Notes: generated by a model from the sequence alone, not told the origin. Positions 8,023-64,000 are shown, counted from the first letter of the stretch. The stretch is DNA of 64,000 nucleotides from Anthocerotibacter panamensis C109 (GCF_018389385.1 NZ_CP062698.1:3227501-3291500), one strand, 5' to 3'. Numbers and translations are program-made.

Positions 8023-8097
8023 GTAAATGCATGATGACTTAGGGATGCTAGGCGGGAATGATAATTATAGATAATTTGCTTGATGGAGAACCCCCAG

Positions 8098-8604: not shown

Positions 8605-8639
8605 TCCTGTGCTCTGCAACTAAAATTCCTGTAAATACT

Positions 8640-8675: not shown

Positions 8676-8767
8676 GTAAATTTATGGAAAAGCCCGTTGT
8701 ACGATTGTGTCAACTGAAATTTTTCCTATGCAATAATTTTTTGCTTGACTGACGCTTGATCAGTATA

Positions 8768-11883: not shown

Positions 11884-11979
11884 TATCTTAATTCCTCCCC
11901 TTTGTTTTTTGGACTGTAAGTTAATTATGCTTTATAATTTTTGAATTACGTTTGATGTGAACAGACTATACATCTAAAT

Positions 11980-15144: not shown

Positions 15145-15155
15145 GGGTTTCCACC

Positions 15156-15371
15156 TCACAGTAGACCCGTATGATAAATTCGTCTCATGAAATCACTGTC
15201 CCGCTCCTGCTTCCACTTCTCTATTGGAAGTCTACAGGGTGGGATTTTCTTTTGGGAAAGTTGTACACCGCGTAAGGTTTCCAAATAAGCCTTATCAAGA
15301 ATTTTTTGTTTTGGCGAGATTAGCAAAACGCTATAGATAGCCTTTTCCCCCTTGAATTCCTGCATTAGCAC
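15156..15371 (-). CDS. hypothetical 71-residue fragment
   Basis: An open frame of mixed basic composition (KQKILDKAYLETLRG, PIEKWKQERDSDF) lying directly upstream of the truncated IS982 transposase and on the same strand. There is no clear ribosome binding site and I recognise no family. It could be the remains of a gene cut by the insertion sequence. The rest of 15145-15509 shows nothing else. Confidence 0.25.
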   Translation of the reverse strand: MLMQEFKGEKAIYSVLLISPKQKILDKAYLETLRGVQLSQKKIPPCRLPIEKWKQERDSDFMRRIYHTGLL

Positions 15372-15509
15372 ATGGATGATTACCTGCCAATAGGTCAGTT
15401 TATCTTATCTATGCTGAAAGGAGAATCATCGCATAGAGGGATCAATGTGCCTACTATGAAAATTAAAGCAGTATCTGTTTAAGCAGCATATTTCTGTCTT
15501 TGCATATGT

Positions 15510-42094: not shown

Positions 42095-42243
42095 TTATCA
42101 GGCCCCCCTACTGAATGAAGCGATGATACTATACTTTGGAAACAAATCCAAAGTATTCATTTCTGACGCGGCTTAGACACTGTAATCGCTCAGGAATTCT
42201 ATGTTTTTAGACAGTGGCATAGATGCTGCTGGGGGGGAGCACC

Positions 42244-45200
42244 ATGATAGACATCTCCAGGCAGGAGCCAGGGAATTTTCAGCATTGGGTTGAGTTACTG
42301 CGCTACCGCGCTCTTGAGCAAGGGGAGCAACCCGCTTATATCTTTTTGCATAACGGACAGGAAGAGTGTCTCACCTACGGGGCTTTAGACCGTCAGAGTC
42401 GGGCTATCGCAGCCCGGTTGCAGCAGCTCAAGGCGCAGGGGAAGACTGCTTTGCTGCTGTATCCTCCTGGTCTCGACTATATTGCCGCTTTTTTGGGGTG
42501 CCTTTATGCCGGGGTGATTGCTGTCCCAGCCTATCCTTTGCTCAAGCAGCGCGGTCTACCCCGCATCCAGAATATGGTGGCGGACTGCCGCCCCCATGTG
42601 GCGTTGACCGCCGCCCAAAGCCTTGGCAAAATGCGGGTGCTCCTGGCAGAGGGAGCGGATTTGGGGATTCCTGATTGGGTGCTTACGGATGAACTGGCTG
42701 TAGGCAGTGAAGCCGCGTGGCGGATGCCGGTCCTGGACAAGGAGGCGCTGGCTTTTTTGCAGTACACCTCGGGCTCGACGGGGAGGCCGAAGGGGGTCAT
42801 GGTCAGCCACCGCCATCTGCTGGAGAATTCGGCGCTGATCGCGGCGAATTTTGGGCATACCCCTGAGGCGGTGGGCGTGAGTTGGCTACCGCTCTACCAC
42901 GATATGGGGCTGGTCGGTGCAACCCTCCAAGTCCTCTATGTTGGATTTCCGCTGGTGCTCCTGTCGCCGGCTGAATTTCTCCAGCGTCCGCGCGTCTGGC
43001 TGGAGGCGATTTCGCGCTATCGCGGGACGACGAGTGGGGGGCCGAATTTTGCCTATGACCTATGCGTGACCAAGATTTCCCCCGAGCAGCGCGTGGGCCT
43101 CGATTTGAGCCGTTGGGAGGTCGCGTTCAGTGGTGCGGAGCCCGTCCGGGCAGCGACCCTGGAGCGCTTTGGGCGGGCCTTTGCCCCGCAGGGTTTCCGG
43201 CAGGAGGCGTTCCATCCTTGCTATGGGATGGCGGAGGCGACGCTGTTCATCAGTGGTGCCCGCAAAGGGGTGCTGCCCCAACAGACCCCCGTGCAAAAAG
43301 AGGCCCTGGCTCAAGGTCGTTGGGTGGCAGGCGGTGAGCCGGCTCAAGTGCTGGTGGGCTGTGGTCAGCCGGGGGAGCGGGTGGTCATTGTCCATCCTGA
43401 GACTATGCACCGCTGTGGTCCTGGAGAGCTGGGCGAAATCTGGGTCGGCGGGTCGGTGGCTGGGGGCTACTGGCAAAATCAGGAAGAAACTACCCGTACT
43501 TTTCAGGCTCATTTGGCGACAGGGGAAGGGCCATTTCTGCGCACGGGTGACCTGGGCTATCGGGATGCCGGAGAACTTTTCATCACCGGCAGGCGCAAGG
43601 ATCTCATCATTCTTCAGGGGCGCAATCTCTATCCTCAGGATATCGAAGGGAGCGTAGAGCGCAGCCATCTGGCGCTAAAACCGGGATGCGGGGCAGCTTT
43701 TGCGGTGACGGTGGCAGACTGCGAGCGGCTGGTTGTTGTCCAAGAGGTGAAGTCTGCGCGTCAGATCGATGCCCCGGCTGTGCTGGGCGCGGTCCGTCAG
43801 GCGGTGGCGGAGGAACATGCAGTGGGCCTATATGCCATCGTTTTGCTCCGCCCCGGCAGTCTCGCCAAAACTTCCAGCGGAAAAATCCAACGGTTTGCCA
43901 ACCGTGAGCATTTCCTGGCGGGCACGCTAGAAGTGGTCGCGCAATGGTGCCTTGAAGCAGATGCTAGCCAGAGTGTCTCTGTTCTGGCTAGCGCCCCCTC
44001 TGCCCGCGCGATAGAAGACTGGCTGAGCGAGCGTCTTGCCCGTCATCTGGGGATCGCAAGCACCGCCATCGAGGTACAGCAATCCTTTGCCTACTATGGC
44101 TTGGGTTCCACCGAGGCGGTCAGCTTGATCGGGGACTTGGAGCGGTGGTTGGGCCGGACTCTTTTGCCTACTCTGGCCTGGGACTACCCGACTATTGCTG
44201 CGCTCGCTCACTTTCTGGCGGGCTCAGACCGGGCTAGTGCTACAGATAAGACGGACCTCGAGCCCTCCGAGCCCATCGCTATTGTCGGGCTGGGCTGCCG
44301 CTTTCCGGGGGCCAAGGACCCTGAGGCATTTTGGCAGTTGTTGCGGACGGGACAGGGTGCGATTGGGGTGGTCCCGGCAGCACGCTGGTCTGGAGCGCGG
44401 GTGGGTCCGCTCGCTCAAGGCGGTTTTGTGGAGGGTGTGGATCGGTTTGATGCGCCCTTTTTCAAGATTTCACCCCGCGAAGCTCGGGCGATGGACCCCC
44501 AACAACGGCTACTCCTGGAGGTAGCCTGGGAGACTTTGGAGCACGGTGGCTTGGCACCGCTGGCGCAGGGCCGCTCGGGGGTCTTTATCGGGGTCAGCAG
44601 CCATGATTACGCCCAATTGTTGGCCGGTGCAGCCGAAGATCTGGACCTCTATACTGGCACCGGCTGTGCCCATAGCCTTGCAGCCAATCGCCTTTCCTAC
44701 TACTTGGACTGGCATGGACCTAGTTTAGCTGTAGACACCGCCTGTTCCTCATCGCTGGTGGCGGTGCATCTCGCGTGTCAGCATCTGCGCACCAAGGAGT
44801 GTGACTTTGCCCTAGCGGGGGGGGTGAATGTGCTGTTGACCCCTGACCTGAGCGCCATCTTTGCGCGGGCGGGGATGCTGGCGGCGGACGGGCGCTGCAA
44901 AACTTTTGACGCCGCAGCCGATGGCTATGTCCGCTCTGAAGGCTGCGGACTGGTTGCCCTCAAGCGCCTCAAAGACGCCGAGCGCGATGGGGATCAGATT
45001 TGGGCGGTCCTCCGGGGCTCGGCGGTCAATCAGGACGGCAGGAGTAATGGGCTCACCGCCCCCAATGGAGCCGCGCAACAGGCTGTAATCCGCGAAGCCC
45101 TCGCCCACGCTGGGGTTTTACCCCAACAAATCGGCTATGTGGAAACCCATGGCACAGGTACCCCCCTGGGCGATCCGATTGAAGTGCAGGCGCTCAAGGC

Positions 45201-48200
45201 TGTTCTAGAAGCAGGACGGCGAGCGGATGAGCGCTGTGTCCTCGGCTCGGTCAAGACGAATATCGGACATCTGGAAGCAGCGGCAGGGATTGCGGGGCTG
45301 ATCAAAACGGTGCTTGCCCTGCGCCACGGGCTGGTTCCGCCCCACCTACACCTCAAGCAGCTCAATCCCCATCTGGAATTGGAGGGGACGCCTTTCAGCG
45401 TCGCCACGTCGGCTTGCTTTTGGCCGCAGGCTAGGCGGCTGGCGGGGGTGAGTTCGTTTGGTTTGGGGGGGACCAATGCCCATGTGGTCCTGGAGGCAGC
45501 CCCGGCGGTAGCCCCGGCGGAGCAGCAGGAGCCTTGCTTGCAGCTACTCACGCTCTCAGCCCGGACTGAGCCCGCTTTGCGGGATTTGGCCCGCCGCTAT
45601 GCCCATTATTTAAGTACCCATCCCGAAACAGTGCTAAGGGATGTTTGCGCCACTGCGAATATAGGGCGGGCGCACTTGCCGGAGCGGTTGGCGGTCCTGA
45701 CGCAATCTACGACCCAACTTCAGGCACAGTTGACCGCTTTTGGGGACCAAGAACAGCGAGCCGGTCTGGTCACCGGGCCAATCCGGGGGCGGCAACGGGT
45801 GGCGTTTTTGTTTACCGGGCAAGGAGCGCAATACGCGGGGATGGGCCGCGAACTCTATGCCCGTCAGCCTGTGTTCCGGGCGAGCCTCGACCGGGCGGCG
45901 CAGATCCTGGAGCCTTGGCTGGAGCAGCCACTCCTTACGGTCCTCTTCGCCCCTGAGCTGATCCATCAGACTGCCTATGCGCAACCGGCCTTGTTTGCCC
46001 TGGAGTATGCTCTGGTGGAGTTGTGGCGCTCCTGGGGGATCGAGCCTGATTTCCTGCTTGGGCATAGCTTCGGGGAGTATGTCGCCGCCTGTGTCGCCGG
46101 GGTCTTCAGCCTGGAAGATGGCCTGAGGCTGGTGGCAGCGCGCGCCCGCTTGATGCAGGCGCTACCGGAGCAGGGGCAGATGGCGGTGGTCTTTGCCGCT
46201 GCGGTCATCGTCCGGGAGGTCCTCCAACCCTTTGGGGGATCGGTCGTCATCGCGGCTTTTAATGCCCCTGAGCATACGGTCATCGCGGGCAAGACGCCGG
46301 AGGTGACTGCGGTACTGGCTGCTTTTGCGCAGCGGGGGATCAAGACGCGCCCCTTAAAAATGGCCCACGCTTGCCATTCTCCCCTGATGGCCCCAATGTT
46401 GCCCGAATTGTATCGCGTGGCGCAGACAGTGACCTACCATCCCCCTCATCCGGGCTGGATCGCGACCTGCTTGGGGGCAGGGCCTAACACAACCCCGGAA
46501 TACTGGTGTGCTCATTTGCTCGAGCCGGTGCAGTTCGCGCGGGGCTTGGAACAGTTGCCGGAGGATGTGGTGCTGCTCGAAGTCGGGCCAAAGCCAACCT
46601 TGCTTGGGCTTGCGGGTCAAAACTTTGGGAAACGCGTGGGTTTAGCCAGCCTACGCCCCGGTCAGCCGGAGGAAGCCGTGCTGCTGGAGAGCCTGAGTGT
46701 GCTCTATACCCAAGGTGCAACTGTGAATTGGGCGGCGATGGCTACCCGGTACCAAAGATTGGCCCTGCCGACCTATCCTTTTCAGCGGGAGCGCTATTGG
46801 CTCAGTCCTGCCCCCAAGCCCAATCCGAGCCATCCGCTACTCGGTCAGCGTCTGGTCTCGCCACTCCCGCAAGTACAGTTTAGCGGGGAGCTTCAGTCGG
46901 ACGCTCCTGCTTTTTTGGGAGATCATCGGGTGTTTCAGACCGTGGTGCTCCCGGCGGCAGCTTTTCTGGAAATGGTGCTAGCGGCGGGGGCTCATGTGCT
47001 CAAGACCGAGTGCCTGACCCTGGAGCAGGTGGTCATTGAACGGGCGCTGGTGCTCACGCAGGAACCCAAGACGGTACAGGTGGTTCTACGGGCGGAGTCG
47101 CAGCGGGGTTATCACGTTCAGGTCCTGAGTCTGGAGGGGGAGACGCAATGGACCTGTCATGCCACGGGCTGGATACTTCCTGGCGCTGAAGCACCGGAGT
47201 CTAGGGATCTGGCAGGGATACAGGAGCGCTGCGCTGAAACGGTGCCGATAGCGCAGTACTACGAGCGCTATCAAGCGCGGGATATCGACTATGGACCGGG
47301 CTTTAGGGTGCTGCGTCACCTCTTGCGGCAGCCGGGGGAGAGTCTGGCATGGGTGGATCTGGCTCAGTCAGATGGGCGCTATCTGCTCCATCCGGCCTTG
47401 TTGGACGGGTGCTTTCAGGGGGTGGCTGCGGCGCTCTCGGGGTGGCCTGCTGGCTGCTGGGTGCCGGTTTCCTGCGCCAAGCTACATCTTTATGGGCGCG
47501 TGGGAAGCGGGCTGTGGAGCCATGCTCGCGTGCAGCAGCACGCTGATTTCCTGCGTGCTGACCTAGGTCTGATGGCCCCTGACGGGCAAATCCTCGCCAC
47601 GGTGGAGGGGCTTCAGGTTCAGCCGGTCCGCCCGGAAGCCTTGCTCGGGACAACGTGGTGCTACGAAGTAGTCTGGCGTGAAATGCCCGCTGTGCTGCCC
47701 ACCCCCGCCGCCCTTGAGGCACAGCTAGATCCGGTCCTCGAACCCGATACCGCCGCCTTAGACCACCTCGAAGCCCTGAGTCTGGAGTATGGCTGGAGGG
47801 CGCTTCAGGATCTCGGAGGGAAGCTCGATCCGGGTCAGCGCTTCACCCTGGAGGAAATAGCCGCAACGGTCGTGAAACCACAGCAGTCCTTGCTCAAGCG
47901 CCTGCTCGCCATGTTCGTAGAAGCGCGGCTGCTTCGGTCTCTCAACACAGGCTGGGAAGTCCTCAAAGCTCCTACCAACACCGCTTTTCAGTCCGGGGCT
48001 TCCGCTGAATGGACCTTGCTGGAGCGCTGTGGGACGCACTTAGCTGCGGTCCTGACGGGGCGTTGTGACCCACTAGAGCTACTCTTCCCGCAGGGGGACC
48101 TGACGACCTTGACGCAGGTCTATCAAGAGTCGCCCACCGCCCGGAGGATGAATACTTGGCTAGGCCAAGTCCTCTGTGCTGTGCTCGAGCAGCGGTGCCG

Positions 48201-50451
48201 TCCCCTGCGGGTGCTCGAAATCGGGGCGGGGACCGGCGCAACGACTGCTTATTTGCTGCCGCATCTACCTCCTGATGCTGAATATGTCTTCACCGACCTC
48301 AGCCCCCTCTTTTTGAAAAAGGGCCGGGACAAGTTCCAAGACTATCCCTATGTCCGCTATAAGACCCTTGACATCGAGCAAGACCCGCTCGCCCAAGGCT
48401 TTTTGGCCCATCACTACGACATCGTGGTGGCCGCGAATGTCCTCCATGCCACCCGCGACCTGCGTCAAACGCTCGCCCATGTGCAGCAGTTGTTGACAGC
48501 GGGCGGTCTGTTGTTGTTGTTGGAGGTGGCGGGTGAGCGCCCGGTGCGCTGGCTGGATCTGACGTTTGGCCTGACGGAGGGTTGGTGGCGCTTCGCGGAC
48601 CACGACCTGCGACCGGACTATCCGTTGCTGCCGGTTCAGCGCTGGTGTACTTTGCTGGAGGCGTGTGGGTTCTCCTCGACGAAGCCGCTGCGGGCTGCTC
48701 ATCAGGCGGTCGTGATCGCTCAGGCTCCGCTCGCTCCCGCTCGCTCAGACCGCAACTGGCTCATTCTGGCGGACCGTCAGGGCGTGGGACAGCAATTGGC
48801 GGACCAATTGGCGCTGCGGGGCGAAGCTGCGACCCTGGTTTTTGCGCAGGACCTGGACCTGACGCTTCCCGAAGACTTCCACCGCCTGATCCAAGACGCG
48901 GCTCGGCCTTGGCAGGGTGTGGTGCATCTGTGGAGTCTGGATGCGGGCACGGAGGATTTGGACCGGGCTTTAGAAAAGAGTTGCGCCAGTACATTACATC
49001 TGGTTCAAGCGCTGCTGCGAGCCCATCTAGCCCCCCGCCTCTGGCTTGTGACGCGCGGGGCTCAGGCGGTAGGAACGGCTGCTCCGACGGGCGTAGCTCA
49101 GGCGACTTTGTGGGGCATGGGCCGGGTCATCGCCCGTGAACACCCGGAACTAGGCGGTGTTCTGATAGACCTCGACCCCGAGTCCTCCGCCCACGAAATC
49201 CAGCATCTGCTCACAGAAATTACCCATACACCCGCCGAAGAGCAGGTGGCCTTCCGGGGAACTACGCGCCTGGGGGCGCGGCTGGTGCGGGCTCCTCTGG
49301 AATCGGGAAATCTTCCTTCCTCTGCTTTAAGTCGTATCCCGCTCACGGGAGGGCTAGAAGGCACCTACTTGATTACGGGAGGCTTGGGGGGGTTGGGGCT
49401 GTTGGTCAGCGACTGGCTGGTAGCTCAAGGGGCACGAAATCTCGTGCTGGTAGGCCGCAGTCATCCTGATAGAGAAGCGCAGGCACGGGTGCGGGCCCTG
49501 GAGCACGCGGGCGCGCGCGTGCTGGTGCTACAGGCGGACATAGCGCAAGCGCAAGAAGTTGTCCGGGTTTTGGCTACTATCGAGCGGACGCTGCCTCCTT
49601 TGCGCGGGGTCATCCACGGGGCCGGAGTCCTGGCGGATGGAGCCCTGAGCAGCCAAAACTGGGAGCGCTTCACGGAGGTCATGGGGGCCAAAGTGCAAGG
49701 AGCCTGGAACCTCCACACGCTGACCCAAGACCATCCGCTGGACTTTTTTGTCCTGTTCTCCTCCGTAGCAGCGCTCCTCGGGAGTCCCGGACAGGCCAAC
49801 CACGCGGCGGCCAATGCTTTTTTGGATACGCTGGCCTGGGAGCGCCGCGCTCAGGGGCTCCCTGCCCTCAGTATCAATTGGGGACCTTGGGCTGAGGTGG
49901 GGAAAGCTGCGCATCTGGAGCGCGACCCGCTGCGGCGCTTGGGGATGATCCCCCCGGAGCAGGGTATACGGCTGTTGGGGGAGTTGCTGGGTCAGGATGC
50001 GACTCAGGTGGGGGTCTTCGTCGCAGATTGGGCGCAGCTTTTGCCTGCTTCTGCTGAGGGGTGGCCTGGTTTTCTTGCAGAACTTGCCTCTGGAGGACAA
50101 GCCGCCTGGGAGCCTTTGCCCACGCACGGGCAGACGAGGGAGGAGCGCCCGCCGGTGCTGGCGGATTATCTGCGTGCGCAGGTCGCCGGGGCTCTGGGGG
50201 CGGAGGAGTTTCATTTAGACCCCGAAGCGCCGCTCTTAAACAGCGGTCTGGATTCCCTAACGGCGCTGGAGTTGCGCAATCGGGTCAACCGTGACCTAGG
50301 TGTGGATGTGCCGGTGGTGAAGTTTCTGGAGGGCCTCAGCCTTGCAGACTTGACGAATTTTATAGCCGTGCACTTAGAGGAATCCCCCGCCGCAGCCACA
50401 CAGCAAGTAAGCGCTGACGCAAACGAAGACTGGGAAGAGGGCGCACTGTGA
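42244..50451 (+). CDS. FAAL-ACP-KS-AT-DH-cMT-KR-ACP hybrid loading/PKS protein
   Basis: A 2,735-residue megasynthase. Residues 10-575 are a fatty acyl-AMP ligase (LQYTSGSTGRPKGVM, SWLPLYHDMGLVG) that would load a free fatty acid on the ACP at Ser622. The KS (675-1090) has Cys834 in DTACSSS plus VETHGTGT and KTNIGH. The AT (1186-1466) has GHSFGEY and HACHS, suggesting malonyl-CoA. The DH (1529-1800) has His1561 and Asp1721. The C-methyltransferase (1840-2160) has VLEIGAGTGATTAYL. The KR (2370-2552) has ITGGLGGLG, but His2520 stands where the catalytic Tyr is expected. The second ACP has Ser2671. ATG 42244 follows GGGGGGAG; an upstream frame start at 42223 is unlikely. The end overlaps the next start (GTGA). 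There is no ER domain, so an alpha-methyl enoyl or beta-keto unit is expected. Confidence 0.93.
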   Translation: MIDISRQEPGNFQHWVELLRYRALEQGEQPAYIFLHNGQEECLTYGALDRQSRAIAARLQQLKAQGKTALLLYPPGLDYIAAFLGCLYAGVIAVPAYPLLKQRGLPRIQNMVADCRPHVALTAAQSLGKMRVLLAEGADLGIPDWVLTDELAVGSEAAWRMPVLDKEALAFLQYTSGSTGRPKGVMVSHRHLLENSALIAANFGHTPEAVGVSWLPLYHDMGLVGATLQVLYVGFPLVLLSPAEFLQRPRVWLEAISRYRGTTSGGPNFAYDLCVTKISPEQRVGLDLSRWEVAFSGAEPVRAATLERFGRAFAPQGFRQEAFHPCYGMAEATLFISGARKGVLPQQTPVQKEALAQGRWVAGGEPAQVLVGCGQPGERVVIVHPETMHRCGPGELGEIWVGGSVAGGYWQNQEETTRTFQAHLATGEGPFLRTGDLGYRDAGELFITGRRKDLIILQGRNLYPQDIEGSVERSHLALKPGCGAAFAVTVADCERLVVVQEVKSARQIDAPAVLGAVRQAVAEEHAVGLYAIVLLRPGSLAKTSSGKIQRFANREHFLAGTLEVVAQWCLEADASQSVSVLASAPSARAIEDWLSERLARHLGIASTAIEVQQSFAYYGLGSTEAVSLIGDLERWLGRTLLPTLAWDYPTIAALAHFLAGSDRASATDKTDLEPSEPIAIVGLGCRFPGAKDPEAFWQLLRTGQGAIGVVPAARWSGARVGPLAQGGFVEGVDRFDAPFFKISPREARAMDPQQRLLLEVAWETLEHGGLAPLAQGRSGVFIGVSSHDYAQLLAGAAEDLDLYTGTGCAHSLAANRLSYYLDWHGPSLAVDTACSSSLVAVHLACQHLRTKECDFALAGGVNVLLTPDLSAIFARAGMLAADGRCKTFDAAADGYVRSEGCGLVALKRLKDAERDGDQIWAVLRGSAVNQDGRSNGLTAPNGAAQQAVIREALAHAGVLPQQIGYVETHGTGTPLGDPIEVQALKAVLEAGRRADERCVLGSVKTNIGHLEAAAGIAGLIKTVLALRHGLVPPHLHLKQLNPHLELEGTPFSVATSACFWPQARRLAGVSSFGLGGTNAHVVLEAAPAVAPAEQQEPCLQLLTLSARTEPALRDLARRYAHYLSTHPETVLRDVCATANIGRAHLPERLAVLTQSTTQLQAQLTAFGDQEQRAGLVTGPIRGRQRVAFLFTGQGAQYAGMGRELYARQPVFRASLDRAAQILEPWLEQPLLTVLFAPELIHQTAYAQPALFALEYALVELWRSWGIEPDFLLGHSFGEYVAACVAGVFSLEDGLRLVAARARLMQALPEQGQMAVVFAAAVIVREVLQPFGGSVVIAAFNAPEHTVIAGKTPEVTAVLAAFAQRGIKTRPLKMAHACHSPLMAPMLPELYRVAQTVTYHPPHPGWIATCLGAGPNTTPEYWCAHLLEPVQFARGLEQLPEDVVLLEVGPKPTLLGLAGQNFGKRVGLASLRPGQPEEAVLLESLSVLYTQGATVNWAAMATRYQRLALPTYPFQRERYWLSPAPKPNPSHPLLGQRLVSPLPQVQFSGELQSDAPAFLGDHRVFQTVVLPAAAFLEMVLAAGAHVLKTECLTLEQVVIERALVLTQEPKTVQVVLRAESQRGYHVQVLSLEGETQWTCHATGWILPGAEAPESRDLAGIQERCAETVPIAQYYERYQARDIDYGPGFRVLRHLLRQPGESLAWVDLAQSDGRYLLHPALLDGCFQGVAAALSGWPAGCWVPVSCAKLHLYGRVGSGLWSHARVQQHADFLRADLGLMAPDGQILATVEGLQVQPVRPEALLGTTWCYEVVWREMPAVLPTPAALEAQLDPVLEPDTAALDHLEALSLEYGWRALQDLGGKLDPGQRFTLEEIAATVVKPQQSLLKRLLAMFVEARLLRSLNTGWEVLKAPTNTAFQSGASAEWTLLERCGTHLAAVLTGRCDPLELLFPQGDLTTLTQVYQESPTARRMNTWLGQVLCAVLEQRCRPLRVLEIGAGTGATTAYLLPHLPPDAEYVFTDLSPLFLKKGRDKFQDYPYVRYKTLDIEQDPLAQGFLAHHYDIVVAANVLHATRDLRQTLAHVQQLLTAGGLLLLLEVAGERPVRWLDLTFGLTEGWWRFADHDLRPDYPLLPVQRWCTLLEACGFSSTKPLRAAHQAVVIAQAPLAPARSDRNWLILADRQGVGQQLADQLALRGEAATLVFAQDLDLTLPEDFHRLIQDAARPWQGVVHLWSLDAGTEDLDRALEKSCASTLHLVQALLRAHLAPRLWLVTRGAQAVGTAAPTGVAQATLWGMGRVIAREHPELGGVLIDLDPESSAHEIQHLLTEITHTPAEEQVAFRGTTRLGARLVRAPLESGNLPSSALSRIPLTGGLEGTYLITGGLGGLGLLVSDWLVAQGARNLVLVGRSHPDREAQARVRALEHAGARVLVLQADIAQAQEVVRVLATIERTLPPLRGVIHGAGVLADGALSSQNWERFTEVMGAKVQGAWNLHTLTQDHPLDFFVLFSSVAALLGSPGQANHAAANAFLDTLAWERRAQGLPALSINWGPWAEVGKAAHLERDPLRRLGMIPPEQGIRLLGELLGQDATQVGVFVADWAQLLPASAEGWPGFLAELASGGQAAWEPLPTHGQTREERPPVLADYLRAQVAGALGAEEFHLDPEAPLLNSGLDSLTALELRNRVNRDLGVDVPVVKFLEGLSLADLTNFIAVHLEESPAAATQQVSADANEDWEEGAL

Positions 50452-56400: not shown

Positions 56401-58253
56401 CGGACAGCGCCCAACTGCGTGGCTTGCTCCAGCAGAAAGTGCCTGAATACATGGTGCCTGCGGCGTTTGTTTTCCTGGAGGCGATGCCCTTGACCCCCAA
56501 CGGCAAAGTGGACCGCCGTGCGCTACCTGCCCCTGCCTATGCCGGGGACATGGCGGAAGATGGCGCACCCCGGACGCCGGTTGAGGAATTGTTAGTACGG
56601 CTGTGGGCGCAGGTTTTGGGGCTCCCGCAGGTGGGCATCCACGACAACTTTTTTGCGCTGGGTGGACACTCGCTCCTGGCGACTCAAGTCATCGCTCGGG
56701 TGCGGGAGACCTTTGGGGTCGAGGTGCCCTTGCGCGGGTTGTTTGAGGCTCCGACGATTGCTGCGTTTGCTGCCTATCTGCCCGCAGGCGCGGGGGTTGC
56801 CTGCTTGCCCCTCGATCCGATTGCTCGGGAGGGCGCTTTGCCGCTGTCTTTTGCCCAACAGCGTCTGTGGTTTTTGGAGCAGCTCGAGGGACCGAGCAGC
56901 ACCTATAACCTGCCTATGCCCGTGCGGTTGACGGGTCCGCTCCATCGGCAAGCCCTCCAGCAGAGCCTCAGTGAAGTCGTGCGACGCCATGAGGCGCTAC
57001 GGACCCGCTTTCTAGCCGTCGGGGGCCATCCGGTGCAGGTCATCGCCCCCCCGACTGCCCTAGACCTGCCGATGATAGACCTAAGCGAGATAGCAGAACG
57101 GGACCACGCCGTACACCGCTACGCTCAGGTAGAAGCCCAACGCCCCTTTGATCTCGAGCAAGGCCCTTTGCTGCGCTGCACTTTACTCAAGTTGGGCGCG
57201 ACTGAACACGTTTTGCTCCTGACCGTCCACCACATTGCCGCCGATGGCTGGTCTTTGGGTGTCCTCATCCGCGAGCTTGCCTGCCTCTACCCCGCCTTCT
57301 TGCAGGACAGACCCCATTCCCTTCAGCCCTTACCGATTCAGTACGCCGACTTCGCCCACTGGCAGCGCCACTATCTCACGGGCGAACGGCTAGAGCGGCA
57401 CCTGACCTATTGGCAGGAACATCTGACCGGCGCTCCTCCCCTATTGGCGCTCCCCACCGACCATCCGCGCCCCCCGGTGCAACGCTTTGAGGGCGCTATC
57501 CTGCCCGTGGTCCTCCCTGCCGACCACGCGGCAGCCCTCCAAGCCCTGAGCCGCCGCCGGGGTGTGACGCTGTTCATGACCTTGCTTGCGGTCTTTCAGG
57601 TGCTGCTATACCACGCCACCAGCCAGGAAGACCTGGTCGTGGGTACGGCGGTCGCCAATCGTGACCCGGCAGCCGTCGAGGACTTGATTGGTTTTTTTGT
57701 AAATCAACTTGTCCTGCGTACCGACCTCAGCGGTAATCCTGAATTTCAAGAGCTTTTGCAGCGGGTGCGCCAAGTGACCCTCGCAGCCTACAGCCATCAG
57801 GAACTGCCCTTCGAGGCCCTAGTCGAGCACCTCAATCCCCCCCGTGACCCAAGCCACACGCCCCTCTTCCAGGTCCAATTTGTCCTCCAAAATACTCCCC
57901 TGCCCGCCTTGGAAGGGACCGACCTCACCCTAAGTCCCCTAAAAGTCGATAATGGCACCGCCAAATTTGATCTGCTCCTGATGCTCCAGGAGGATGAGGC
58001 AGGCATCCATGGCTTTTTCCAGTACAACACCGGACTCTTCGAGCGGGCCACGGTCTTGCGCCTGACCCAACACCTAGGGCTCCTCCTACAGGCAGTCATC
58101 CAAAATCCATCCGTCCATCTCGAAGAGCTAGACCAGCTTTTGGACACTGCCGAAGACCAGCAGCAGACCGACCAAGAGCAGTCCTTGCACGTCCGGGGGC
58201 ACGCTACCCTGCGCCAGACCCGACGCCAAACCATCCAACGACCTATTTGTTGA
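50448..58253 (+). CDS. NRPS: TubC-C-A-PCP-C-A-PCP-C
   Basis: A 2,601-residue synthetase. Residues 1-52 resemble a TubC N-terminal docking domain, fitting a partner PKS upstream. C1 (about 59-490) has HHIVSDAWS. A1 (510-990) has specificity residues D-V-W-H-F-S-L-I-D-K, close to the serine code. PCP1 has Ser1041 in GGHSLL. C2 (1097-1515) has HHIAADGWS. A2 (1543-2026) reads D-V-W-H-F-S-L-I-E-K, serine-like with one change. PCP2 has Ser2075. A terminal C3 (2131-2550) has HHIAADGWS and no A domain behind it, so it must act on an amino acid held by the next protein. A1-PCP1 and A2-PCP2 are almost identical in DNA. The start GTG overlaps the PKS stop. Confidence 0.93.
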   Translation: MNLSQLLSTLAALRVELWMEGEHLRYRAPKATLTPGLLAALRHHKAEICDVLQAPTIHPLTYGQRALWFLHQLNPTSASYNVALSVRICSGVEPQALRQVFQDLVTRHAALRTVFPVQDGEPVQRVQPVQELSWRTVDAHPTALYEQVMAAYSQPFDLEAGPLLRVDLFTQSQEEHVLLVTLHHIVSDAWSLWLLLEEVRHLYPARVSGQDVTLTPPATPYSAFGHWQTQLLANPDTERLWDYWRTHLAGDLPQLWPPRHGAVPELGGQTEGFRLTEALTLQLNALARKEGATLYMTLLAAFQVLLARYSGQEDILVGSPTTGRNQEAFARVIGYFVNPVVLRAQVRGDEPFTAFLGQVRATVLAALAHQDYPFALLVQRLQKDHDRTALFQASFNLQKPMGEMAMLFLPDGNRLEWGGLALEPYPIPQQEGQFDLTLEMVEARGTLYGVFKYNADLFDREQIIQLTQHFQNLLAAIVHAPNRPLAHHDVLSPTERHQLLVCYNDTHTPFPETLGLHQLVERQVARTPERIAVSFEQQTLTYHHLNGHANQLAHHLQALGVGPGTRVGICLERSLELVIALLGVLKAGGAYVPLDPSYPTERLAFMAADSQIAVLVTAPGSVPWVADKPILTVSVQGLEGPTENLTGTVTPMDLAYVMYTSGSTGKPKGVMTTHRALVNRLWWMQQQYPLTAEDRVLQKTPFSFDVSVWEFFWPLLSGARLVMARPGGHKEPGYLRHVLEEQAISVVHFVPSLLQVFLEQTGLERCHRLRHVFCSGEALTVSVQERFFERLAAQLHNLYGPTEAAIDVSAWTCVPGARVVIGRPIANTELYILDAHLQPVPIGVAGELHIGGTPLAQGYWNQPQLTAQKFIPHPFRPQERLYKTGDRARFLRDGTIAYLGRIDHQVKLRGLRIELGEIEALLREYVREAVVLLREDAPGDKRLVAYVVGASDSAQLRGLLQQKVPEYMVPGAFVFLEAMPLTPNGKVDRRALPAPAYAGDMAEDGAPRTPVEELLVRLWAQVLGLPQVGIHDNFFALGGHSLLATQVIARVRETFGVEVPLRGLFEAPTIAAFAAYLPAGAGVACLPLDPIAREGALPLSFAQQRLWFLEQLEGPSSTYNIPAMVRLSGSLDRGALHKSLQEVVQRHEVLRTTFAQGAEAPVQVIAPALKLDLPEVEAIEQTVEQLATAEAQRPFDLEQGPLLRCTLLKLGATEHVLLLTVHHIAADGWSLGVLIRELACLYPAFLQDRPHSLQPLPIQYADFAHWQRHYLTGERLERHLTYWQEHLTGAPPLLALPTDHPRPTRPTFRGSTVPMTLSREETEQLKHLSQEHGVTLFMTLLAAYAILLARYSAQDDLVVGCPIANRTRGETEGLLGFFVNTLPLRINLAGEPSFEQALARVREVTLGGYAHQDLPLEHLVEVLQPERNLNYNPLFQVALVLNPPLPALELPGLHLTTLAVPSTTAKFDLTLALEETAQGLTGVWEYNRDLFEAETIIQLTQHFQNLLAAIVHAPNRPLAHHDVLSPTERHQLLVCYNDTHTPFPETLGLHQLVERQVARTPERIAVSFEQQTLTYHHLNGHANRLAHHLQALGVGPGTRVGICLERSLELVIALLGVLKAGGAYVPLDPSYPTERLAFMAADSQIAVLVTAPGSVPWVADKPILTVSVQGLEGPTENLTGTVTPMDLAYVMYTSGSTGKPKGVMTTHRALVNRLWWMQQQYPLTAEDRVLQKTPFSFDVSVWEFFWPLLSGARLVMARPGGHKEPGYLRHVLEEQAISVVHFVPSLLQVFLEQTGLERCHRLRHVFCSGEALTVSVQERFFERLAAQLHNLYGPTEAAIEVSAWTCVPGSNVIPIGRPIANTELYILDAHLQPVPIGVAGELHIGGTPLAQGYWNQPQLTAQKFIPHPFRPQERLYKTGDRARFLRDGTIAYLGRIDHQVKLRGLRIELGEIEALLREYVREAVVLLREDAPGDKRLVAYVVGASDSAQLRGLLQQKVPEYMVPAAFVFLEAMPLTPNGKVDRRALPAPAYAGDMAEDGAPRTPVEELLVRLWAQVLGLPQVGIHDNFFALGGHSLLATQVIARVRETFGVEVPLRGLFEAPTIAAFAAYLPAGAGVACLPLDPIAREGALPLSFAQQRLWFLEQLEGPSSTYNLPMPVRLTGPLHRQALQQSLSEVVRRHEALRTRFLAVGGHPVQVIAPPTALDLPMIDLSEIAERDHAVHRYAQVEAQRPFDLEQGPLLRCTLLKLGATEHVLLLTVHHIAADGWSLGVLIRELACLYPAFLQDRPHSLQPLPIQYADFAHWQRHYLTGERLERHLTYWQEHLTGAPPLLALPTDHPRPPVQRFEGAILPVVLPADHAAALQALSRRRGVTLFMTLLAVFQVLLYHATSQEDLVVGTAVANRDPAAVEDLIGFFVNQLVLRTDLSGNPEFQELLQRVRQVTLAAYSHQELPFEALVEHLNPPRDPSHTPLFQVQFVLQNTPLPALEGTDLTLSPLKVDNGTAKFDLLLMLQEDEAGIHGFFQYNTGLFERATVLRLTQHLGLLLQAVIQNPSVHLEELDQLLDTAEDQQQTDQEQSLHVRGHATLRQTRRQTIQRPIC
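51837..53807 (+). repeat. A-PCP module repeat, copy 1
   Basis: About 1.97 kb running from the end of C1 through A1 and PCP1 into the start of C2. It is matched at 54936-56909 with roughly a dozen single-base differences plus one divergent patch of about 40 bases around the A5 motif (52865-52910) that includes a 3-base length change. The offset is 3,099 before that patch and 3,102 after it. Confidence 0.9.
54014..54356 (+). repeat. C-domain core repeat, copy in C2
   Basis: 343 bp covering the catalytic HHIAADGWS motif of C2, essentially identical to 57131-57473 in C3 (offset 3,117), although the flanking parts of C2 and C3 differ clearly. Confidence 0.85.
54936..56909 (+). repeat. A-PCP module repeat, copy 2
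   Basis: Second copy of the 1.97-kb module repeat, spanning the end of C2, A2, PCP2 and the start of C3. The main difference from copy 1 is the patch after the A5 motif, where IDVSAW becomes IEVSAW and the following loop changes. Confidence 0.9.
57131..57473 (+). repeat. C-domain core repeat, copy in C3
   Basis: The C3 counterpart of 54014-54356. The flanks on both sides, covering the acceptor and donor lobes, have diverged, so only the centre of the domain has been homogenised. Confidence 0.85.
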
Positions 58254-58292
58254 GAAGACCAGACGTTGCCCTATTGCCAGGAGAAAACTTTA

Positions 58293-61200
58293 ATGTCTCA
58301 GACAACCTTTGAAGGATTTCGCCTCTCGCCTCAGCAGCAGCGTATCTGGCAGCTCCAGGCAAACGGTAGCTCTGCCTATTATATTCAGGGTCAGATTGCC
58401 CTTGTCGGCCCCCTCGCGCGCGAAACGCTCCAGGCAGCTCTGGCGACGGTGGTGGCACGCCATGAGATTTTGCGGACCCGATTTGTCTGTGAACCAGCAG
58501 AGACCCTTGCGCTCCAAGTGATCCGACTGCCCCGCCGTCCGGTGGTCCCTGAATACAACTGGCAGCGTCTGGATGCCCAAGCCCAACAGGAGCGCATTCA
58601 GGCACTCCTCCGGGAATGGCGGGAGTATCCCCTGGGGACAGGTCCGCTCCTGCGTACTGTGCTAGTCCGGTTGTCTGCGACCCAGAGAATGCTGCTCGTC
58701 AGCCTTCCTGCACTCTTGGCGGATCTGATGACGCTGGGCCACTTCGTCCGCGAACTGAGCCACGCCTACGCCTACCACCGCTATGCAGAACCCCTCGCCC
58801 ATGCCGATATCATGCAGTACGCTGATGTGGCTGAATGGCTCAACGGGCTTTTGGAGTCTGAGGAAACCGCTCCAGGGCGAGCCTACTGGAGCCGCCGCGC
58901 GAGCGCTCCGCCTATGCAAGCGCTCCCCTGCGAACAACCCGCCGCGCTCGGGCAGCCCTTGCGCACGCAGTCCGTGACCATAGACCTGCCGCAGGTAGCC
59001 GAGATCCAGACCTTTGTGCAGGAGCAGAGGACCTCGTTAAAAGTCCTGCTACTTGCCTGCTGGCAGCTATTGCTGTGGCGGCGCACCGACCAAGGGGCAC
59101 TCACGCTTGGCTATGCCTGCGACGGTCGCAACTATCCCGAACTGTGCACCCATCTGGGTCCTTTGACCCGCTATCTCCCGCTCCAAGGAAACCTAGAAGC
59201 AAAGCTCCCCTTCACGCGTTTCCTGCAACAGACCCACCAAGCTATCCATAACGCCTGCGCTTGGCAGGAATATTTTGAGGCAACCGACCCGCCGTTGGCC
59301 TTTGGTTTCGATATGGTTGAAGTGCCGGCGAGCGAAGTCGTAGGTGAGGTACAGTTCTCCCTCCAGTGGCAATATGCGTGCCTGGAACCCTTCAAAGTCC
59401 GCCTCAGTGGGCTTCTCGGACCCGAAGAGCTGCGCCTCGAACTCCATTACGACGCCCGCTGCTTCCAGCAGAGCGATATCGAAATCTTGGCCCGACAATT
59501 TCAAGCCCTCCTCGACCATGCCCTCCGGCAGCCCGACACCCCCCTCGCTCGCCTCGCTCTGCTGAGCCCGACGGAGCGCCAACGCCTGCTGGTAGCGTTC
59601 AACCACACCGAGCAGCCCTTCCCTGACCGCCCCTTGCATCAACTCTTTGCAGAACAGGTGCAGCGCACCCCCGCCCACACCGCCGTGCGCTGCCCCCGAG
59701 AGCGGCTCACCTATCACCAACTCAACTGCCGCGCCAACCAACTAGCTCACTACCTCCAGACGAGAGGCTGTGCCCCTGGTACCCGTGTGGCGGTCTTGCT
59801 GGAGCGCTCCTGTACTTTGTTGGTCGCACTGCTTGCGGTCCTCAAGACCGGAGCCGCCTACGTCCCCCTTGATCCGCGCTATCCTTCCCAGCGTCTCGAC
59901 TACATGCTCACAGACGCCCAACCCTTGCTCCTGTTGAGCGCAGGGGAGATCGCCCCACCCGACGCCCCTGTACCGCTGCTGCGGCTGGACGATTTTGATT
60001 TCAGCGCCTATAGCCCCCAGGACCCTCCCCCCGCTGTCCACCCCGAAGATTTGGCCTACCTCATCTATACCAGTGGTTCCACCGGCAGACCCAAAGGGAC
60101 GATGATTCCTCACCGCGCGCTGGTCAACTACCTCTGGTGGGCGTGCCACTACTACCGCGTCGTGGAAGGGACCGGCGCTCCGGTCGCCTCTTCCATTGCC
60201 TTTGACGCCACCCTGACTGCGCTGTTTACCCCGCTGTTGGTAGGGCGGATGGTCGCCATGCTCCCCGATGCCGTGGAGACCTTGGTGACCGACTTGAGTT
60301 CCGGGGCGGGCTACAGCTTGGTCAAGCTCACCCCGGCGCATCTAGACGCGCTCACCCCTTTGATCCAAGAAGAAGAAATCGCTTCCGGGACACAGACGCT
60401 GGTCTTGGGCGGGGAGGCACTTTTAGCCCAAAGCCTTACCTTTTGGCGGACCCGGACCCCTTGGACGCGCCTCATCAACGAATACGGACCGACCGAAGCG
60501 ACCGTGGGCTGCTGTGTCTACACCATAGGCGCAGGGGAGGAGCTACGGACGCAAGTCCCCATCGGACGCCCAATCGCCAACACAGAGCTCTATATCCTGG
60601 ATGAAGACCTGGAGCCCGTACCCATAGGCATCCCCGGAGAACTATACATCGGCGGGGCGGGGCTCGCTCTGGGCTATTGGAATCAGCCCCAACTCACGGC
60701 GCAGAAGTTCATCCCCCATCCCTTTCGCGCTCAAGAACGGCTGTACAAAACCGGGGACCGGGCGCGGTTCCTTGCAGATGGGACGATTGAGTATCTGGGG
60801 CGCATCGACCACCAAGTAAAACTGCGTGGCTTGCGTATTGAGTTGGGCGAAATCGAAGCGCTCTTGCGTGAGTATGTGCGCGAAGCGGTAGTGCTCCTGC
60901 GCGAAGATGCGCCTGGGGATAAGCGGCTGGTCGCCTATGTCGTCGGAGCCTCGGACAGCGCCCAACTGCGTGGCTTGCTCCAGCAGAAAGTGCCCGAATA
61001 CATGGTGCCTGGAGCGTTTGTTTTCCTGGAGGCGATGCCCTTGACCCCCAACGGCAAAGTGGACCGCTGTGCGCTACCTGCCCCTGTCCCTCAGACTGCG
61101 GCCTATCAAGCCCCCCGGACGCCGGTCGAGGAACTGTTAGTGCGGCTGTGGGCGCAGGTTTTGGGGCTCCCGCAGGTGGGTATCCACGACAATTTTTTTG

Positions 61201-62717
61201 CGCTGGGCGGGGACTCCATCCTCAGCCTCCAGATTGTCGCCAGAGCGCGGCAGTTGGGGCTGAATTTCGAACCCCGGCAGGTCTTTCAGTACCAGACCAT
61301 CGCTGAATTAGCCGCTGTCACCCCTCTGGGCACTCCCCCATCTGCCCAACAGGGTCCGGTCACCGGGCTGGTACCGCTGACCCCCATTCAGCACTGGTTC
61401 TTTGAACAAAACCTAGCCCAGCCTCACCACTTCAACCAATCCCTCTGCCTAGAACTGCCCACCACCCCGCAGCCAGAACTGTTGCAGCAAGCCCTCCACC
61501 ATTTGCTCGTCCATCATGACGCGCTGCGCCTGCGCTTCACCCCATTGTCCACCGGCTGGCAGCAGAGCAATGACCCCATTCCCGTCCCCCTGCCCTTCAG
61601 CGTAGTAGACCTCGCAGGATACCCCGCCCCAGAGCAAGCAAAAGCTTGGGCTGAAGCTACCACCAGCCTCCAGAGCAGCTTGGACCTCACCACAGGGCCG
61701 CTTTTGAGCGCAGGACTCTTCACTTTTGGACCTGAGCAACCCAGCCGTCTGCTCTTGGTGGTCCATCATCTGGTCGTAGATGGCGTCTCCTGGCGGATTT
61801 TGCTCGAAGACCTCGCCACGCTCTGCCGCCAGTCCGAGCAGGGCAAACCCTTGGCACTGCCGCCTAAGACGACTTCCTTTAAAGCTTGGGCTGAGCACTT
61901 AGCCACCTACGCCCCGTCCGAGGAATTAGTGATGGAGCAGGACTACTGGCAAGATCTCAAGCGCTTGCGGGTCACCCCTCTGCCGCTCGATTATCCGGCG
62001 GACCCGACAGCCAATACCGTAGCTGACGTAGCCAGAGTCGCCGTCACCCTCGACTGCGACCAGACGCGAGTCCTCCTCCAAGAGCTTCCTGCTCGCCACG
62101 AAACGCAAGTCAATGACGTGCTGTTGACCGCGCTGGTTCAGGCGTTTGGAGCCTGGACAGGGGAGCCCGCCCTGCTCATCGACTTGGAGCGCCACGGGCG
62201 AGAGGAACAAGGCGCGGTAGACCTGTCGCGCACGGTGGGCTGGTTCACTACCCTCACGCCCCTATGCTTGGAGCAAACAGCTACCACGCTCCAGACAGTC
62301 AAGGCCCAACTGCGTCGCCTACCTCGGCTGGGCTATGGCCTCCTGCGCTACCATCCGGCTTTCCAGGATGGTTTTCGTGCCCTCCTTCAGCCTGAAGTAC
62401 GGTTTAACTATCTGGGGCAATGGGACCAGGGTCTACCCTCGCTGGCGCTATCCCGAGAGCCCAGTGGACCGGAGCAGAGCACCTTAAATCAGCGCCCGTA
62501 CCTGTTGGAGGTGGATGCCCTAGTGCTCGAAGGCGTACTGCACATCCGCTGGACCTACAGCACCCGCCTCCATCGCCCAGCAACCATAGAGAGACTGGCC
62601 CAGGACTATCTACAGGCGTTGCAGGAACTCATCCACAGCCCGTCAATCCCCCCGGATTTTGTCAGCCCAGAGCAATTCGACCGGCTCCTCGCCGAAATCG
62701 CCCTAGCGGAGGAATGA
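58293..62717 (+). CDS. NRPS: degenerate C-A-PCP-epimerase
   Basis: A 1,474-residue synthetase. Residues 13-417 have the length and ends of a condensation domain, but the HHxxxDG motif is replaced by SLPALLAD (137-144), so it should not condense. The A domain (447-930) has specificity residues D-A-T-K-V-G-E-V-G-K, nearest to asparagine codes. The PCP carries Ser975 in GGDSI, the form usual before an E domain. The E domain (1026-1463) has HHLVVDG (1158) and RTVGWFTTL. The product unit is thus probably D-Asn. ATG 58293 has AGGAG nine bases upstream; TTG 58266 is unlikely. There is a 39-bp gap to the gene before and an ATGA overlap with the next. Confidence 0.92.
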   Translation: MSQTTFEGFRLSPQQQRIWQLQANGSSAYYIQGQIALVGPLARETLQAALATVVARHEILRTRFVCEPAETLALQVIRLPRRPVVPEYNWQRLDAQAQQERIQALLREWREYPLGTGPLLRTVLVRLSATQRMLLVSLPALLADLMTLGHFVRELSHAYAYHRYAEPLAHADIMQYADVAEWLNGLLESEETAPGRAYWSRRASAPPMQALPCEQPAALGQPLRTQSVTIDLPQVAEIQTFVQEQRTSLKVLLLACWQLLLWRRTDQGALTLGYACDGRNYPELCTHLGPLTRYLPLQGNLEAKLPFTRFLQQTHQAIHNACAWQEYFEATDPPLAFGFDMVEVPASEVVGEVQFSLQWQYACLEPFKVRLSGLLGPEELRLELHYDARCFQQSDIEILARQFQALLDHALRQPDTPLARLALLSPTERQRLLVAFNHTEQPFPDRPLHQLFAEQVQRTPAHTAVRCPRERLTYHQLNCRANQLAHYLQTRGCAPGTRVAVLLERSCTLLVALLAVLKTGAAYVPLDPRYPSQRLDYMLTDAQPLLLLSAGEIAPPDAPVPLLRLDDFDFSAYSPQDPPPAVHPEDLAYLIYTSGSTGRPKGTMIPHRALVNYLWWACHYYRVVEGTGAPVASSIAFDATLTALFTPLLVGRMVAMLPDAVETLVTDLSSGAGYSLVKLTPAHLDALTPLIQEEEIASGTQTLVLGGEALLAQSLTFWRTRTPWTRLINEYGPTEATVGCCVYTIGAGEELRTQVPIGRPIANTELYILDEDLEPVPIGIPGELYIGGAGLALGYWNQPQLTAQKFIPHPFRAQERLYKTGDRARFLADGTIEYLGRIDHQVKLRGLRIELGEIEALLREYVREAVVLLREDAPGDKRLVAYVVGASDSAQLRGLLQQKVPEYMVPGAFVFLEAMPLTPNGKVDRCALPAPVPQTAAYQAPRTPVEELLVRLWAQVLGLPQVGIHDNFFALGGDSILSLQIVARARQLGLNFEPRQVFQYQTIAELAAVTPLGTPPSAQQGPVTGLVPLTPIQHWFFEQNLAQPHHFNQSLCLELPTTPQPELLQQALHHLLVHHDALRLRFTPLSTGWQQSNDPIPVPLPFSVVDLAGYPAPEQAKAWAEATTSLQSSLDLTTGPLLSAGLFTFGPEQPSRLLLVVHHLVVDGVSWRILLEDLATLCRQSEQGKPLALPPKTTSFKAWAEHLATYAPSEELVMEQDYWQDLKRLRVTPLPLDYPADPTANTVADVARVAVTLDCDQTRVLLQELPARHETQVNDVLLTALVQAFGAWTGEPALLIDLERHGREEQGAVDLSRTVGWFTTLTPLCLEQTATTLQTVKAQLRRLPRLGYGLLRYHPAFQDGFRALLQPEVRFNYLGQWDQGLPSLALSREPSGPEQSTLNQRPYLLEVDALVLEGVLHIRWTYSTRLHRPATIERLAQDYLQALQELIHSPSIPPDFVSPEQFDRLLAEIALAEE
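60678..61086 (+). repeat. third copy of the A-domain C-terminal block
   Basis: 409 bp of the A8-A10 part of the Asn-type A domain match 53025-53433 (A1) and 56127-56535 (A2) with very few differences, although the substrate-binding cores of these domains are unrelated in sequence detail. Confidence 0.85.
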
Positions 62718-64000
62718 TGCAACCCAAAGATATCGCGGGGGTTTATACCCTGTCGCCCGTACAGCAAGGCATGTTCTTTGAGACGCTTTTCACCGAGGGA
62801 CTCCATCTCGAACAGTCGCTCTGGCGGATTAGCGGGGACTTGGACCCCAAGGCTTTTGCCGGGGCATGGCAGCGTGTCCTGGACCGACATCCGGCCCTGC
62901 GGACAGTCTTTGTCTGGAAGGGACAACAGCAACCCCTCCAGGTCGTCCTCCACCACGTGAAGCTACCCCTAGAGCAGCAGGACTGGCGGAGCTTGGGTGC
63001 CAGCGAGCAGCAGGAGCGCCTCAGAGCCTATCTCGCCGTGGACCGTCAGCAGGGGTTTATCCTGTCCCACGCCCCGCTCCTGCGTCTAGCCCTCTTGCGT
63101 CTAGCCGAGGATGCCTACCAGATCGTCTGGACCTATCACCATCTCCTACTCGATGGCTGGTCTGTCGCCCTCGTAGTGCGTGAGGTCATGGCCTATTACC
63201 TGGACCCCCAGCAGCCAAATGTCCCGTCCGGAGCATCCCACCAGACCTATAGAACCTGGTTGCAGCAACAAGACCTATCTCAAGCAGAAAACTTTTGGCG
63301 GCAAGAACTGCGGGGCTTCACCCGACCCACCCCCCTCGGAAAACGTGCTCCCGTCCGCCTCGGGACCGAGGGGTACGGCGAAGCCGAGCTTCGCTTTCAA
63401 GCTCCGCTTACCGCCCGCCTCCAAGCGCTGGCCCGCCGCGAGCACCTGACCCTAAACACGCTACTGCAAGGGGTCTGGGCCTTACTTCTAAGCCGCTACA
63501 GTGGGATGACGGACGTGGTCTTTGGGACGACCGTCGCAGGCCGCCCGCCGCAGTTGCCGGGAGTCGAGACGATGGTGGGTCTATGGATCAACACGCTCCC
63601 CGTTCGCCTTTCGGTCGTGCCCGAGGCAGCCTGCTGGGCATGGCTACGAGCCCTACAGGAGCACAACCTAGCGCGCGAACCCTATACCTACTGCTCGAGC
63701 GGACAGGTCCATCAATGGAGCGATAGCCCTATGGCGCTCTATGACAGCCTGCTGGTCTTCGAGAACTATCCTGTAGATCTGGCGCATCTGGCGCGCCTCC
63801 CGGTGAAGATCCAGAGCACCGCCCACCGGGGAGCCCAGACAAAATTCCCGCTGACGCTGTTGGCGCATATAGACCAGCAACTCCATATCCAGGCAATCTA
63901 TCAGGCAGCCTGCTTTGACGCCCCAGATATCGCCCAGGTCCTAAACCATCTTCAGGGGCTCCTGACCCACCTCACTACTGATTCCAGCTTGGACCTTGCC
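62717..64000 (+). CDS. NRPS, N-terminal C domain (continues past the window)
   Basis: 428 codons to the edge of the window, open at the 3' end. It starts with a condensation domain (VYTLSPVQQGMFFETL, YHHLLLDGWS at His141-His142, TTVAGRPPQLPGVE). Following an epimerase-ending protein, this C domain should be of the DCL class, joining a D-residue donor to the next L-residue. GGAGG at 62708-62712 fits ATG 62717; ATG 62714 overlaps the previous stop and is also possible. The A domain, later modules and any thioesterase lie beyond the window. Confidence 0.92.
   Translation, partial: MQPKDIAGVYTLSPVQQGMFFETLFTEGLHLEQSLWRISGDLDPKAFAGAWQRVLDRHPALRTVFVWKGQQQPLQVVLHHVKLPLEQQDWRSLGASEQQERLRAYLAVDRQQGFILSHAPLLRLALLRLAEDAYQIVWTYHHLLLDGWSVALVVREVMAYYLDPQQPNVPSGASHQTYRTWLQQQDLSQAENFWRQELRGFTRPTPLGKRAPVRLGTEGYGEAELRFQAPLTARLQALARREHLTLNTLLQGVWALLLSRYSGMTDVVFGTTVAGRPPQLPGVETMVGLWINTLPVRLSVVPEAACWAWLRALQEHNLAREPYTYCSSGQVHQWSDSPMALYDSLLVFENYPVDLAHLARLPVKIQSTAHRGAQTKFPLTLLAHIDQQLHIQAIYQAACFDAPDIAQVLNHLQGLLTHLTTDSSLDLA

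Follow-up and report, generated by a model that had tools for sequence, protein, structure and literature searches.

What does a cyanobacterial assembly line make when it retains a condensation-like domain that in its relatives usually stands directly behind a hydroxylase, with no such hydroxylase encoded at its own locus? This question is raised by a stretch of 64,000 nucleotides of Anthocerotibacter panamensis C109 (the window hereafter), which corresponds to C1:3,227,501-3,291,500 of a single-contig genome of 4,187,797 bp. The whole assembly line consists of four plus-strand genes at 42,244-65,167 (22.9 kb, counted from the first letter of the window, whose edge cuts gene 4), with the full domain order, according to Pfam, of FAAL-ACP-KS-AT-DH-cMT-KR-ACP, TubC-C-A(Ser)-PCP-C-A(Ser-like)-PCP-C, C*-A(Asn/Asp-type)-PCP-E and C-PCP-TE, where C* denotes the condensation-like domain in question. 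We consider it probable that this is a complete chromosomal lipopeptide line related to that of cyanochelin, from which the hydroxylase has been lost or in which it was never present, and which would deliver an unhydroxylated, probably non-siderophore product of three to four residues.

42131..42156, no strand assigned: perfect 10-bp inverted repeat, ATACTTTGGA-N6-TCCAAAGTAT, 87 bp before the start of gene 1
42244..50451, plus strand: gene 1, FAAL-ACP-KS-AT-DH-cMT-KR-ACP, no ER (Pfam, catalytic motifs)
50448..58253, plus strand: gene 2, TubC docking-C-A(Ser)-PCP-C-A(Ser-like)-PCP-C (Pfam, A codes)
58293..62717, plus strand: gene 3, C*-A(DATKVGEVG)-PCP-E (Pfam; 42% identity over 100% to the cyanochelin B locus)
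62717..65167, plus strand: gene 4, C-PCP-TE without an A domain, PCP and TE beyond the window (Pfam, motifs)

The open reading frames called in the window, all on the plus strand, span 42223..50451, 50448..58253, 58266..62717 and 62420..>64000. For gene 1 the in-frame ATG at 42,244, which follows a G-rich Shine-Dalgarno-like stretch and had already been chosen in the first-pass annotation, is preferable to 42,223 and was kept, while the ATG of gene 3 at 58,293 is preceded by AGGAG and agrees with the starts of its relatives. The reading frames share 4 nt at the junction of genes 1 and 2 and 1 nt at that of genes 3 and 4, with 39 nt between genes 2 and 3; the tightly packed rightward operon described at first pass stands with regard to packing and direction, but its extent had to be revised, as gene 4 runs to 65,167. 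Equally, the description as a FAAL-PKS-NRPS lipopeptide line and the domain order given for it are borne out by Pfam, and as the E-values of the main domains range from 1e-11 to 0, chance domain matches are excluded. The inverted repeat upstream of gene 1 occurs as a single copy in the window, with a chance expectation of none, and is possibly an operator or a stem-loop in the 5' untranslated region. The upstream neighbour of the cluster is a divergent S41 peptidase, and downstream minus-strand reading frames resemble, as judged by reading the translations by eye, an alpha/beta hydrolase, a glutathione-S-transferase-like protein and an MGMT-type methyltransferase. Further downstream, a plus-strand reading frame of 2,109 aa (67374-73703 in window numbering) is RHS/YD-repeat-like by appearance. 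Upstream of the cluster, at 8001-16000, the GC content drops to 38-40% compared to 50-57% in the surroundings, possibly an acquired island. Elsewhere in the same genome, a second PKS-NRPS cluster is located at C1:about 871-905 kb, with a TonB-receptor match at 929 kb; a frameshift in it is suggested by the final genes, which overlap out of frame inside a single A domain (C1:872,168-875,282).

In gene 1, Pfam recognizes AMP-binding together with a FAAL C-terminal-type domain, ACP, KS, AT, DH, methyltransferase, KR and ACP; FAAL-type matches come from both Pfam and NCBIfam, with the ACP in the same protein. Throughout the line, the motifs of KS, AT (HACH), DH (His and Asp), cMT, the PCPs and TE are intact, and the AT motif is one that we take to be malonyl-type. 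Two features within the PKS module need to be singled out:

48211..48513, plus strand: cMT core of the PKS module with SAM motif VLEIGAGTG (Pfam Methyltransf_12, residues 1998-2097)
49786-49830, plus strand: KR motif GQANHAAANAF, in which His replaces the usual catalytic Tyr (about residues 2522-2536 of gene 1; motif comparison)

While other KR domains in related loci possess Tyr where the gene 1 KR has His, the same His is shared with six other KR sequences, four of which derive from loci found in the class-wide search for gene 1 relatives that used its cMT-KR-ACP part as the query. As this His recurs, the KR is predicted to be possibly functional, although the replacement of the catalytic Tyr makes the oxidation state of the acyl chain uncertain. 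The acidic C-terminus of the protein, ANEDWEEGAL, may be the motif to which the gene 2 TubC domain docks.

Gene 2 comprises, according to Pfam, TubC_N, three Condensation, two AMP-binding and two PP-binding domains. The A codes of the line, DVWHFSLID (A1), DVWHFSLIE (A2) and DATKVGEVG (A domain of gene 3), presumably specify Ser, a Ser-like residue and an Asn/Asp-type residue, respectively, as judged from general knowledge of the code, in line with the first-pass hint at serine and asparagine. Self-comparison of the DNA identified a near-identical block of about 2 kb that occurs twice, and the gene ends in a canonical condensation domain:

51837..53797, plus strand: near-identical block, copy 1 (end of C1, A1, PCP1, start of C2)
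54936..56899, plus strand: near-identical block, copy 2 (end of C2, A2, PCP2, start of C3)
56829..58163, plus strand: terminal C of gene 2, HHIAADG intact (PF00668, 3.4e-117)

Across sliding windows the DNA of the two copies agrees at 95-100% of positions, and uninterrupted identical stretches reach 604 bp. The A domain of gene 3 is 90-99% identical to its gene 2 counterpart in its C-terminal part, yet not in its substrate-binding core. This pattern reflects module duplication with recent gene conversion, a known route of NRPS change. The terminal C of gene 2, the C-terminal half of which has its nearest relatives in the C domains adjoining C* in two genomes of one cyanobacterial genus (G046 and G059), is predicted to be the condensing domain for the gene 3 module. 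A scar of a TauD deletion was considered in the basic tail of the protein, TLRQTRRQTIQ, which resembles a TauD N-terminus; shuffled sequences matched its score in 198/5000 and 897/5000 cases under two models, and the candidate was discarded.

Pfam resolves gene 3 into Condensation fragments, AMP-binding, PP-binding and a Condensation-family E domain. The Condensation fragments correspond to C*, a condensation-like domain without HHxxxDG placed right before the Asn/Asp-type A domain:

58293..59603, plus strand: C*, interface-type C-like domain, predicted catalytically dead, with VSLPALLAD for HHxxxDG and no hydroxylase partner at the locus

Aligning along its whole length with its relatives, C* is 40% identical to the Gloeobacter-type C* and at most 29% identical to any canonical C or E domain compared. 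All C* domains form one clade in the tree, apart from three canonical C domains used as outgroup (support 100/100), in which PALxAD or near variants are typical in place of HHxxxDG. A profile search of 390 cyanobacterial genomes identified C* domains in 41, often two per locus; 40 regions were fetched and 58 C* sites scored overall. At 49 of these 58 sites, which include same-genome pairs and close relatives and are therefore not independent, a TauD/SyrP-type dioxygenase is found directly upstream of C*, either as a standalone gene or fused to the preceding C, and the A codes that follow C* are mostly for Asp, DLTK[IV]GHVG. As the clade carries the dead motif and is preceded by TauD so frequently, including in the cyanochelin B cluster, C* is, on its position, its sequence class and secondary sources, predicted to be an interface-type domain for hydroxylase recruitment; antiSMASH 8 equally lists interface domains alongside siderophore beta-hydroxylases. 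The split between C and C* then appears as an ordinary interface-type junction within a single module, C-[hydroxylase]-C*-A-PCP-E. On the grounds of motif and clade, the reading of C* as a heterocyclisation or a second active condensation domain was rejected.

At this junction, however, the hydroxylase partner is missing. Gene 2 ends in C and gene 3 opens with C* 39 nt further on, with no TauD gene at the locus and no beta-hydroxylase of the kind that cyanochelin-type siderophore clusters contain. The sole TauD protein of the genome is encoded at C1:3069559-3070419, at a distance of about 200 kb. Against the family HMM it reaches 139 bits, compared to 512 and 538 for the cyanochelin members, and the genes next to it, read by eye, are not NRPS genes; it could nevertheless act in trans on the gene 3 residue. 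A PF05118-type Asp/Asn beta-hydroxylase, present in one copy about 257 kb away and without similarity to the TauD family, was dismissed as a partner. Nor is a transport system at hand: of 13 TonB-receptor matches in the genome, the PF00593 match nearest to the cluster lies about 167 kb off and none was found among the upstream neighbour proteins scanned, so that a siderophore assignment by proximity was dropped.

The window case is not unique, as six C* sites are without TauD despite available upstream sequence (G000, G046, G059, G126, G246 and G379). Since the last five are scattered over several parts of the C* tree, the absence of TauD at the junction probably arose repeatedly. Within the G046 and G059 clusters a further TauD is present, whereas the window line has none. 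The code DATKVGEVG is also found in G196, there behind an intact TauD, and the gene 3 residue could therefore still be a substrate of hydroxylation. A link between a code with Glu at position 322 and the missing TauD, seen in 3 of 6 TauD-less sites compared to 4 of the 37 sites that have TauD and a DxTKxG[HE] code that could be read, is suggestive, with two of the three from one genus, and was not adopted.

The second peculiarity lies beyond the window edge. Gene 4 possesses Condensation, PP-binding and Thioesterase matches in Pfam with the motifs HHLLLDG, GGHSLL and GWSFGG all present, and lacks an A domain. It resembles in this respect the C-T-TE end of the syringomycin synthetase SyrE, to which the residue is supplied from SyrB1 (PMC8949500). 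In the syringomycin case the partner A-T protein is encoded within the cluster, whereas no partner A or A-T protein was found within the operon of the window line, where cross-loading of the terminal PCP by A1-A3 is a possible route. A protein of 3,507 aa encoded on a plasmid of Nostoc sp. UHCC 0926 (49% identity) ends likewise in E-C-PCP-TE, as does one of 3,164 aa from Burkholderia arboris (NZ_CP101526.1), whose 9,495-bp gene has the same length as ocfD. From this equal gene size and from the gene order, we infer that the Burkholderia arboris cluster is ocf. This occidiofungin-type synthetase shares with the window line the FAAL-KS start, Ser and Asn A codes and the A(Ser)-PCP-E-C-PCP-TE end (OcfD), but is an eight-residue line without a member of the C* clade. 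Occidiofungin has eight residues, one of them polyketide-derived, and as the cluster encodes six amino-acid A domains plus the FAAL, one residue has no A domain of its own; by this count it is probably Asn1. In the occidiofungin papers, OcfJ is predicted to add Asn1, yet the Burkholderia arboris reading frame that matches OcfJ in size is a FAAL-KS and not an Asn module. This occidiofungin-like cluster is located on the Burkholderia arboris plasmid pla_2 (L150:2743-49372), the record of which gives no annotation for it. Other cyanobacteria (G155, G351, G216, G366 and G340) encode proteins of about 840-890 aa that are similar to gene 4, in which more domains come after C, and in G224 (L069:9899-13996) an A-less module occupies an internal position, as C-PCP-C-TauD ahead of C*-A.

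How does the line compare to known systems as a whole? With the cyanochelin B cluster (ccs, Leptolyngbya sp. NIES-3755 plasmid 2, AP017310.1) it shares a core of FAAL, cMT-PKS, Ser NRPS module and C / C*-A-PCP-E. In cyanochelin B, FAAL-CP-KS-AT followed by cMT-KR is distributed over two genes, the Ser A code is likewise DVWHFSLID, and the order is C / TauD (BAU16062) / C*-A-PCP-E (BAU16061), with the BAU16061 region being the relative of gene 3 given above. On the other hand, the characterised cyanochelin B cluster comprises nine core genes spread over about 45 kb, with two TauD enzymes, two C* modules and thiazoline formation, and is adjoined by receptor and ABC-transporter genes. The window line ends in C-PCP-TE and has a single C* and neither a TauD nor a receptor at the locus. 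In the cyanochelin B paper (PMC12628792), one beta-hydroxy-aspartate is assigned to CcsK, a hydroxylase that stands alone, and CcsL, an Asp module with an E domain; the compound has two hydroxy-acid ligands. Order-level relatives are the uncharacterised Gloeobacter-type clusters (G004, G006), whose C*-A-PCP-E gene is 45-46% identical over its length; they differ by a standalone TauD between C and C*, the Asp code DLTKVGHVG and large flanking receptor-like reading frames (read by eye). The second C* module of the uncharacterised G046 and G059 has the same arrangement without a junction TauD, C-A-PCP-C-A-PCP-C followed by C*-A(Glu at position 322)-PCP-E; it differs in that the first C* module of that cluster is served by a TauD, that the gene which follows encodes C-A-PCP and that a large receptor-like reading frame is nearby.

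The four-gene order was not found in a scan of genome contigs, in a sample of 390 class members or in plasmid records, and the first-pass statement that the line matches no named product holds insofar as these collections yielded no full-length match. What that annotation had singled out as novel does, however, have precedents: a methylating PKS module directly after FAAL-ACP is encoded on a plasmid of Nostoc sp. ATCC 53789, where one tblastn piece spans gene 1 residues 38-2718, as well as in cyanochelin B, and the split between C and C* is the usual place of an interface-type domain in cyanochelin-type clusters. The actual oddities, the dioxygenase absent between C and C* and the A-less last module past the window edge, lay beyond what could be seen at first pass.

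From domains, motifs and homologies the following pathway can be proposed. The FAAL would adenylate a fatty acid and load it onto the first ACP, whereupon the PKS module would add one malonyl unit and a C-methyl group, leading, if KR and DH work, to a 2-methyl-2-enoyl (or 2-methyl-3-hydroxy) acyl chain. Gene 2 would take over the chain via its TubC docking domain and add Ser and the Ser-like residue, and its last C would condense the chain with the Asn/Asp-type residue on the gene 3 PCP, which E would convert to the D form. C* would stay outside condensation; in relatives it would dock the TauD/SyrP-type beta-hydroxylase on the PCP-bound residue. Next, the C of gene 4 would link the chain with a residue that the A-less PCP has received from another module or in trans, and TE would release the product as an acid, lactone or macrocycle. 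As hydroxylase and nearby receptor are absent, the product is expected to be unhydroxylated and probably not a siderophore.

Alternative readings of the locus need to be weighed against this account. A working beta-hydroxyasparagine/aspartate siderophore line, with C* recruiting the lone TauD in trans and the receptor encoded elsewhere, would be in agreement with a C* retained and alignable at full length, with the gene 3 code being found behind TauD in G196 and with a genome that holds both a TauD and TonB receptors. We nevertheless regard it as unlikely, considering the low score of this TauD, its neighbours other than NRPS genes, the distance to the nearest receptor and the single potential hydroxy-acid ligand compared to the two in cyanochelin B. 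Slightly less credit still is given to a line that is decaying or silent and makes no product: although the missing TauD, the A-less last module and the exchange of Tyr for His in the KR could be seen in this light, all four reading frames are open and the other catalytic motifs intact, the His recurs in other KR domains, A-less E-C-PCP-TE ends occur in other lines, one of which matches the occidiofungin cluster in gene sizes, and the near-identical module copies point to recent gene conversion and thus to a line that still evolves. That C* is a catalytic second condensation domain, the tandem C-C* performing an extra acylation or esterification, is suggested by two C-like domains in series with no carrier between them, but is very improbable given PALLADL for HHxxxDG, a motif of the type common in the clade, and the association of this clade with TauD genes rather than with extra residues.

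Within the preferred account of an unhydroxylated cyanochelin-related line, a loss of TauD, rather than an assembly of the line from parts, is suggested by the near-universal presence of TauD in relatives. Only tentatively do we propose that a former beta-hydroxy-amino-acid siderophore line has been repurposed, whereby the hydroxylase was dropped, the interface domain kept in a structural role or for another partner, and the last module came to be loaded by an A domain of the line itself.

The locus provides a natural example of an interface domain that persists without its hydroxylase. With it one can ask whether dead condensation domains have roles besides TauD recruitment, and by what route a siderophore line is turned into a different lipopeptide line. 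With four genes over 22.9 kb from an early-branching cyanobacterium, the line is of a practical size for expression, and cross-module loading can be put to the test on its A-less end, which an antifungal-type line has as well. If the repurposing were true, the product would represent a new lipopeptide class in thylakoid-less cyanobacteria.
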